From: an uncultured Verrucomicrobiota bacterium
Lineage (GTDB): Bacteria > Verrucomicrobiota > Verrucomicrobiia > Chthoniobacterales > JACTMZ01
Assembly: GCA_903953565.1 (NCBI GenBank)
Contig: CAJBKE010000037.1
Span: 1-64,000 of the forward strand
Direction: 5' to 3'
DNA: 64,000 bases
How positions within the stretch are numbered: the first letter of the stretch is position 1; every line of letters starts with the position of its first letter. Below, one piece after another: positions 62,467 to 64,000 of this stretch. Under the pieces are notes generated by a model. That model ran no database searches. It was not told the DNA's origin and was given only the letters and a program-made list of their open reading frames with translations. Made by a program: the position numbers and the translations under genes.

Positions 62467-62487
62467 TACTGAACATTTGAACAGTAT
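62466..62487. promoter_or_regulatory. 22-bp dyad ATACTG-AACATTTGAA-CAGTAT upstream of the polymerase fusion ORF
   Basis: 6-bp perfect outer arms; contains TGAAC-N4-GAACA. Confidence 0.4.
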
Positions 62488-62512: not shown

Positions 62513-64000
62513 GTGAAGCGGACGGAACAGCGGGCGGCGGTGCATCTGGATGCGGATGCATTTTTTGTCGGTTGCGAGGTGGCGTCCGAGCCGTGCCTGC
62601 GCGGGAAGGCGGTGGCGGTCGGGGGGATGAAGCGCGGGATCATTGCCTCGGCGAGCTACGAGGCGCGGCGGCTTGGCATTTACACGCCGATGTCAACGGC
62701 GCGGGCGCTGAAGATTTGTCCGCACTTGGTCGTGCTGCCGGGGGATTACGAGAAGTATGAGCATTTTTCGCGGCTGATGTTTTCGCTGGTCCACGATTAC
62801 ACGCCGGTGGTGGAGGTCGGGTCGATCGACGAGGGCTACGGGGATTTGTCGGGGGTAACGAAATGGAGTCCGCGCACGGCGGCCGAGAGGTTGCGCAAAA
62901 ATATCCGCGACCATTTGCGGCTGTCCGTCTCGCAGGGTCTGGGCACGAACAAGTTGGTGGCGTCGGTGGCGTCGAAGCTGCGCAAGCCGGACAATTTTCT
63001 CGAAGTGCCGGCGGGGACGGAGCGGGAATTTCTCGCGCCGCTCGAGGTGAAGTGGCTGCCGGGAGTGGGGGCGAAGATGGAGCGTATTTTTTTGGCGGCG
63101 GGCTTGCACCGCATCGCGCAGGTGGCGGAGACGACGGTAGAGAGTCTGGAATTGATCGCGGGCTCGGGGGCGGGGCAGTTGCGGGAATTCGCGCTCGGCA
63201 TCGACGAACGTCTGATCGTGACCGAGCGCGAGGATGCGCAGTCTTACGGCAAGCAGGAGACGTTCGACGAGGACACGACAGACGAGGAGTTCGTGCGGCG
63301 CGTGCTGCGCGGGATGGCGGATCATTTGATGGCCAAGGTGCGGGCCGACGGGAAGATGATCCGCTGCGTCGAGGTGCGGCTGCGTTACAATGACATGGAG
63401 CAGAGCCGGCGAAGCGAGAGTCTCGACGAGCCGACGGATTTGGAGACGGATGTCTATGGCCTAATCGACCGGCTGGCGCGGCGCGCGTGGGATCGGCGGG
63501 TGAGTTTGCGTCTGGTCGGGTTGAAACTATCGCGCGTCTATGACGGCGGAGGGTGGCGTCAGGCAGGGTTGGATTTGCCAGGGACGGGGTATGACAAAGA
63601 GACGCGGCGGGTGTTGGCGCGTGTCATGGATGAGGCAAAAATTCGTTATGGGAGCGGGGCTGTGGTTCGGGCGCACCAGCTTCCGATGCGGCAGAGTTGT
63701 CAGTCGTCAGTTGTCAGTCGTCAGCGAAAACCGTCCGTAGGGCGGTGCCACTTCACTCACACTCAAACTCAAGTTTCAGCCGTTCTTAATGTGAAAAGCT
63801 GCTTCAGTTTCATGGATTCGTTGCTGCGGCCGGACGATATCGCACGGCTGGCGGCGGAGCGGGGGGCGAAGGCAGTGGCGATGACGGATCCGAATTTGCA
63901 CGGGGCGGTGGACTTTTGCACGGCGGCGAAAGAAGCGGGGATCAAGCCGGTCGTGGGGGCGGAGGTGAAGATTGGGGGAATTCGGTATTTGGCTTATGTG
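62513..64000 (+). CDS. Y-family DNA polymerase fused in frame to DnaE-type PHP domain (ORF continues past window)
   Basis: VHLDADAFFVGCE, SIDEGYGDLSG, HhH LPGVGAKM; then SAVLNVKSCFSFMDSLLRPDDIARLAAERGAKAVAMTDPNLHGAVDFCTAAKEAGIKPVVGAEVKI; no stop in frame. Confidence 0.85.
   Translation, partial: MKRTEQRAAVHLDADAFFVGCEVASEPCLRGKAVAVGGMKRGIIASASYEARRLGIYTPMSTARALKICPHLVVLPGDYEKYEHFSRLMFSLVHDYTPVVEVGSIDEGYGDLSGVTKWSPRTAAERLRKNIRDHLRLSVSQGLGTNKLVASVASKLRKPDNFLEVPAGTEREFLAPLEVKWLPGVGAKMERIFLAAGLHRIAQVAETTVESLELIAGSGAGQLREFALGIDERLIVTEREDAQSYGKQETFDEDTTDEEFVRRVLRGMADHLMAKVRADGKMIRCVEVRLRYNDMEQSRRSESLDEPTDLETDVYGLIDRLARRAWDRRVSLRLVGLKLSRVYDGGGWRQAGLDLPGTGYDKETRRVLARVMDEAKIRYGSGAVVRAHQLPMRQSCQSSVVSRQRKPSVGRCHFTHTQTQVSAVLNVKSCFSFMDSLLRPDDIARLAAERGAKAVAMTDPNLHGAVDFCTAAKEAGIKPVVGAEVKIGGIRYLAYV

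Follow-up and report, generated by a model that had tools for sequence, protein, structure and literature searches.

A Y-family polymerase with conserved catalytic residues joined in one reading frame to a DnaE2-type polymerase in Verrucomicrobiota, a candidate single-chain mutasome

The DNA analysed here (the window) is the stretch of 64,000 nt at positions 1–64000 of contig C37 in a draft genome of 2.86 Mb (70 contigs, 96% complete). The window truncates a gene, polY::dnaE2, whose frame goes on along the contig, running on the + strand from a GTG at 62513 to a stop ending at 66676 (window numbering) and encoding a protein of 1387 aa (P0001). The original prediction had described an uninterrupted frame leading from a Y-polymerase into a DnaE polymerase and looked past 64000 for the DnaE palm and tail; the frame is indeed open from the GTG through the window end, and palm, fingers, HhH and OB parts were found up to its stop. 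The motifs also lie where they had been placed, with HLDADAFF at aa 11, SIDE at aa 104, LNVKSCFSF at aa 425, and TDPNLHG. The fused protein consists of a Y-family polymerase, a RecA-N-terminus-like (RecA-NT) motif, a variable linker, and a complete DnaE-type polymerase, in that order (Table 1). Pfam matches above cut-off are IMS (12–155), IMS_C (243–351), PHP (425–515), DNA_pol3_alpha (614–873), DNA_pol3_finger (900–1038), and HHH_6 (1140–1205), and a C-terminal OB fold scores below threshold; the NCBIfam models matched are DNA polymerase IV on the Y half and DNA polymerase III alpha and error-prone polymerase on the DnaE half. The fusion is the sole Y-family polymerase of the window genome. 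A second DnaE (1140 aa, contig C59) groups on a tree with verrucomicrobial and E. coli DnaE1, and the presence of this separate DnaE1 rules out the DnaE half as the replicative polymerase. Downstream of the window, on contig C37 (6609–8329 of locus L003), an EpsI/exosortase-like pair was noted by eye on the opposite strand.

Table 1. Positions of the features at the polY::dnaE2 locus, in window numbering
Feature	Position	Strand	Remarks
Palindrome TACTGAACATTTGAACAGTA, candidate LexA-box-like operator	62467..62486		26 nt before start codon
polY::dnaE2, 5' part	62513..64000	+	in-frame continuation to 66676 on contig
Y-family polymerase	62543..63547	+	aa 11-345; Pfam IMS + IMS_C; PolIV/Dbh structural matches
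QAGLDL, candidate sliding-clamp motif	63560..63577	+	aa 350-355; resembles QxxLxL, weak
RecA-NT motif	63608..63673	+	aa 366-387 (RRVLARVMDEAKIRYGSGAVVR...); profile match
Variable flexible linker	63674..63784	+	aa 388-424, about 36 aa; low pLDDT, dN/dS
TCAGTNN heptad repeat, short	63692..63724	+	inside linker, read in frame
DnaE half start, PHP-type domain	63785..64000	+	aa 425 onward; Pfam PHP

The one-frame protein recurs at 76–89% identity in several genus members among 59 related genomes, and other members hold fragments of the fusion cut by contig ends. Scanning the genus alignment against 85,488 species genomes gave 47 loci, nearly all labelled Verrucomicrobiota. Full-length one-frame fusions in distinct records number 34 with the window gene and form 13 clusters at 70% identity; the 33 others come from other assemblies, one of them the single-cell genome KB911979.1, and are 47–89% identical. 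The labels of the homologue records include Spartobacteria, Limisphaerales/Pedosphaera, and Opitutaceae, and related MAG records are labelled Chthoniobacter, Chthoniobacterales, or Verrucomicrobia; several of the MAG species labels (e.g. Akkermansia muciniphila) are probably wrong. The same six polymerase domain families (Pfam) are present in all 27 fused members scanned. The distribution is rare and patchy: in a phylum-wide sample of 394 genomes, about 4 have the fusion. Apparent frameshifts or rearrangement interrupt three loci (L082, L083, and L086). L082 has the appearance of a frameshifted fusion and not of an ancestral two-gene state, because its RecA-NT-like segment and its DnaE half share a frame. 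At L012/L042/L069 (G010:C12:102050-106802), the HhH/OB junction has received in-frame insertions of long dispersed repeats (GIGILPMMGGGHRQDADAT...), which are duplicated there and lengthen the fused polymerase to 1584 aa with the frame unbroken.

The catalytic residues of the Y half (Asp-13, Asp-106, and Glu-107) and the aspartates of the DnaE half (Asp-717, Asp-719, Asp-721, and Asp-870) are identical in all 34 fused homologues, and the steric gate Phe-18 is Phe in 33 of them and Tyr in one. Comparison of seven species of the genus resulted in dN/dS values of 0.07–0.21 for the Y domain and 0.07–0.13 for the catalytic part of DnaE, indicating that both polymerase halves are under strong purifying selection. 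An AlphaFold model of aa 1–1116 (mean pLDDT 74.5) has structural matches to Pol III alpha (PDB ID 4iqj and 2hpi) and Pol IV/Dbh (PDB ID 7yll and 4irc). Both polymerases are complete and apparently active. The PHP site is disrupted: LNVKS stands in place of the HxH-like pair, and TDH has become TDP. These substitutions had been pointed out in the original prediction and are present, but they are no special feature of the fusion, because a disrupted PHP active site is the rule among DnaE2 proteins (PMC12926913).

The main rival reading is that the protein works in the manner of ImuB and DnaE2, with the Y domain serving mainly as a scaffold and an adaptor for clamp and RecA while the DnaE2 half carries out synthesis. 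The mycobacterial mutasome does operate in this way, with an inactive ImuB and an active DnaE2 (PMC11791113 and PMC12926913), and the order PolY, RecA-NT, DnaE2 fits the contacts between ImuB and DnaE2. We nevertheless consider a scaffold role unlikely, as the Y-domain Asp, Asp, and Glu together with the steric gate are kept in practically all 34 homologues, whereas the ImuB/iPolY groups lost theirs, and as the dN/dS of the Y domain is about 0.08.

Between the two polymerases, the sequence contains two short motifs followed by the linker. In the QAGLDL site, Leu-353 is invariant in 27 fused proteins; the Gln is not retained outside the genus, where the site reads ELxL. The RecA-NT segment matched a profile of 30 verrucomicrobial RecA N-termini with an E-value of 5.4e-5 and a score of 23.7 (67% probability), compared with scores of 17.8 for the best of 60 column shuffles and 17.2 for the highest-scoring of 51 stretches taken elsewhere in the protein. 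A plain pairwise comparison of the junction segment with the N terminus of the genome's own RecA was not significant, so the assignment rests on the profile test. On this basis, we identify the junction motif as the RecA-NT motif described for Y-family polymerases in PMC6511836, the match being a moderate one. In ImuB, the RecA-NT motif is essential for binding of ImuA' (PMC11791113). The AlphaFold model places a helix at residues 360–379 and disorder at residues 378–418 (pLDDT <50), after which the PHP fold begins.

The linker varies from 32 to 79 aa in length across the 34 full-length homologues, and within the genus it evolves near-neutrally (dN/dS 0.5–0.85 in seven species). In each of these seven species the linker is free of stops in the coding frame and both other frames contain stops. 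A near-neutral segment that stays open in frame has the look of selection for reading through the junction. The TCAGTNN repeat recurs in frame at a second inter-domain site (contig 65898–65915), and the fusion gene holds three of the genome's six exact matches to it.

The same linker is the place where two separate proteins could arise, through translation from a start inside the gene close to the DnaE half or through proteolysis, in which case the fusion would not be the working form. Disorder and near-neutral evolution of the linker are compatible with such processing, and GTG 63791 as well as other GTG or TTG codons lie in or near some linkers. GTG 63791, which had been named beforehand as a possible independent dnaE start, is codon 427; two species of the genus (L009 and L010) have Ala at this residue, and this start was rejected for its lack of conservation. 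Within the 15 residues before the DnaE half, no Met is present in 32 of the 34 homologues. If two products were the working form, the linker could take up stops or frame changes without harm; the 34 full-length homologues contain none, and we regard this explanation as quite improbable. That an error of assembly or sequencing conceals a stop (the region 63660–63800 had been singled out) or joins two genes is rejected as exceedingly improbable, since the draft state of the 70-contig genome and the apparent frameshifts in a few homologues (L082, L083, and L086) are outweighed by the dN/dS pattern and by 33 other full-length one-frame homologues from separate assemblies, the single-cell genome KB911979.1 among them.

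The gene neighborhood points to a DNA damage response. In 20 of the 34 full-length loci, lexA is located directly upstream on the same strand, overlapping the fusion gene or within about 45 nt of it. The LexA box of Verrucomicrobia is reportedly TGTTC-N4-GAACA, from a study of LexA in this group. Of the 15 loci that lack an adjacent lexA, 6 have this exact palindrome at the start of the gene, in three lineages, where shuffled sequences give an expectation of 0.0. By its context, LexA control of the fusion family is well supported. In the window's genus the fusion gene is unlinked from lexA. The palindrome TACTGAACATTTGAACAGTA upstream of the window gene is two mismatches away from TGTTC-N4-GAACA, is the sole TACTG-N10-CAGTA site in the 2.86-Mb genome, and is found exactly in four further loci of the genus (L044, L047, L048, and L069). 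LexA control of the window's own copy through this candidate variant palindrome is plausible. By linkage to lexA or by a LexA-box-like palindrome, the fusion is a putative member of the SOS regulon. TACTG-N10-CAGTA was also considered as a genome-wide LexA box and was rejected because it occurs only once. The promoter of the window genome's own lexA contains TACTGGACATATGTCCAGCA, and the recA promoter has no site of the TGTTC-N4-GAACA type. In the Limisphaerales-like loci L057, L058, L060, L080, and L083, an inverted repeat of the GGACAG-N-TTGTCC type recurs in the spacer between lexA and the fusion; it resembles GGACATATGTCC of the lexA promoter in the window genome and may be a LexA site particular to that lineage.

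The fused proteins come together as one clade (100/100) on the DnaE tree, and this clade is adjoined by the unfused verrucomicrobial proteins of genomes G022 and G062. Next out are the DnaE of Bacteroidota dinB-dnaE operons (100/99) and the DnaE of a Desulfosarcina plasmid operon, and both DnaE1 and the ImuB-associated DnaE2A are set apart from the fused clade. Streptomyces DnaE2B lies elsewhere on the tree, on a long branch and outside the group of the fused clade, so that a formal DnaE2B label for the fusion is provisional. The tree of the Y half is less resolved; it places the unfused PolY of G022 beside the fused clade and supports a single origin weakly (82/64), and the relation of the fused Y half to Bacteroidota dinB did not resolve in it. 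These trees point to a single origin of the fusion, in a clade to which unfused DnaE2B partners belong as well. The dinB and dnaE genes of Emticicia share one base, dinB ending on the base at which dnaE begins, and from such an overlap the loss of a stop would be an easy route to a fusion. The fusion thus probably arose through stop loss between translationally coupled dinB and dnaE genes, overlapping as they do in Bacteroidota. The unfused PolY gene of G022 overlaps lexA. The DnaE2-like polymerase of this genome is apparently divided between a free-standing PHP gene (281 aa; L036, G022:C100:7260-8102) and a gene for a PHP-less polymerase (801 aa; L037, G022:C59:5345-7747) on a different contig.

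We favor, as reasonably likely on the sequence data, the reading that the protein is a single-chain mutasome, in which an active Y-family polymerase is followed by a RecA-NT helix and connected through a flexible tether to a DnaE2B-type polymerase devoid of PHP proofreading. Such a protein is probably the single-chain version of the published mutasome of DnaE2B, active PolY, and RecA, induced in the SOS response and activated by RecA. DNA damage would lift LexA repression and thereby induce the fusion, a RecA protomer would recruit and activate it through the RecA-NT helix, and the sliding clamp may also take part in recruitment. The Y domain would then carry out insertion across from the lesion, and extension of the distorted or mismatched primer end would fall to the tethered DnaE2 domain, so that inserter and extender would arrive together at a fixed ratio of 1:1. 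The division of work between the two active sites, with the Y half as inserter and the DnaE2 half as extender, is inferred, and a translesion polymerase switch within one chain, as originally proposed, is plausible. For the full proposal, a RecA-gated polymerase in which a Y-family inserter and a C-family extender are covalently coupled with intramolecular hand-over, in an architecture undescribed before, we put the chances at about even.

No published description of a PolY-DnaE2 fusion was found in the open-access literature searched, and the searched text of PMC6511836 and PMC12926913 does not mention one. The published mutagenesis systems that were found all make the two polymerases as separate proteins. 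According to PMC12926913, no bacterial multi-subunit Y-family complex has an experimentally determined structure. The composition, ratio, and hand-over of DnaE2 mutasomes are open questions, with complexes reconstructed from gene neighborhood and modelling. A natural fusion offers direct evidence of an active PolY and a DnaE2 acting together, the ratio being fixed at 1:1. It also provides one purifiable chain for biochemistry and cryo-EM, in which the idea of an inserter plus an extender becomes testable in a single protein, one active site at a time.

Comparison with the ImuA-ImuB-DnaE2 systems of Mycobacterium, Caulobacter, and Pseudomonas shows a common set of elements, namely a LexA-linked error-prone DnaE2 together with a RecA-NT-bearing Y-family protein, which in those systems contacts RecA/ImuA. 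In contrast to them, the Y catalytic residues are kept here and the polymerases are fused. An ImuB-type inactive Y domain was rejected, as the Y active site is invariant. Pfam gave no match to the ImuB-C domain in the fused protein, and the ImuA model (NF033429) matched in the genome at the RecA locus only, with 45.8 bits against a cut-off of 150; within the genus, too, no ImuA exceeded the cut-off. The original prediction had set the fusion against separately encoded ImuB and DnaE2; its point that an apparently active Y-polymerase is joined to DnaE holds, but the closest comparison is with the PolY/DnaE2 pairs of the DnaE2B type, which have already been described. The RecA-NT motif, the linkage to lexA, and the conservation of the fusion lay beyond what that prediction could see. 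In the plasmid operon of Desulfosarcina ovata (NZ_AP021877.1), lexA likewise lies upstream of PolY and DnaE, but the genes are separate, the PolY is divergent, and a DUF72 gene stands between lexA and polY; the plasmid DnaE groups with the Bacteroidota dnaE. In that locus (L121, NZ_AP021877.1 57624-66764) lexA, DUF72, PolY, and DnaE follow in a row, and the DUF72 gene may be a further damage-response partner. The fusion is also comparable to E. coli Pol V (UmuD'2C-RecA-ATP), in which a RecA protomer controls a Y-family polymerase via a RecA-NT-like tail (PMC6511836); unlike the fusion, Pol V has a UmuD' dimer and is without a C-family polymerase.

The closest likeness is to the DnaE2B systems, in which, according to PMC6511836 and PMC12926913, an active PolY and DnaE2 are encoded as neighboring genes. 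A PolY-DnaE2-RecA pairing of separate genes is predicted there for Bacteroidetes and is described as unusual in that both polymerases appear to be active. Like this putative Bacteroidetes mutasome, the fusion combines an apparently active PolY with a DnaE2-type polymerase without ImuA or ImuB, carries the RecA-NT motif in PolY, and stands in a damage-response context; the DnaE of the Bacteroidota dinB operons is also the closest named group to the fused DnaE on the tree. It differs in that two genes (e.g. Emticicia dinB and dnaE) are replaced by one chain with a tether of 32–79 aa, and in that the host belongs to Verrucomicrobiota rather than Bacteroidota. The pairing as separate genes was thus already known, and what is new is the covalent, single-chain form of a DnaE2-PolY mutasome, a form that has become fixed within a single verrucomicrobial clade.
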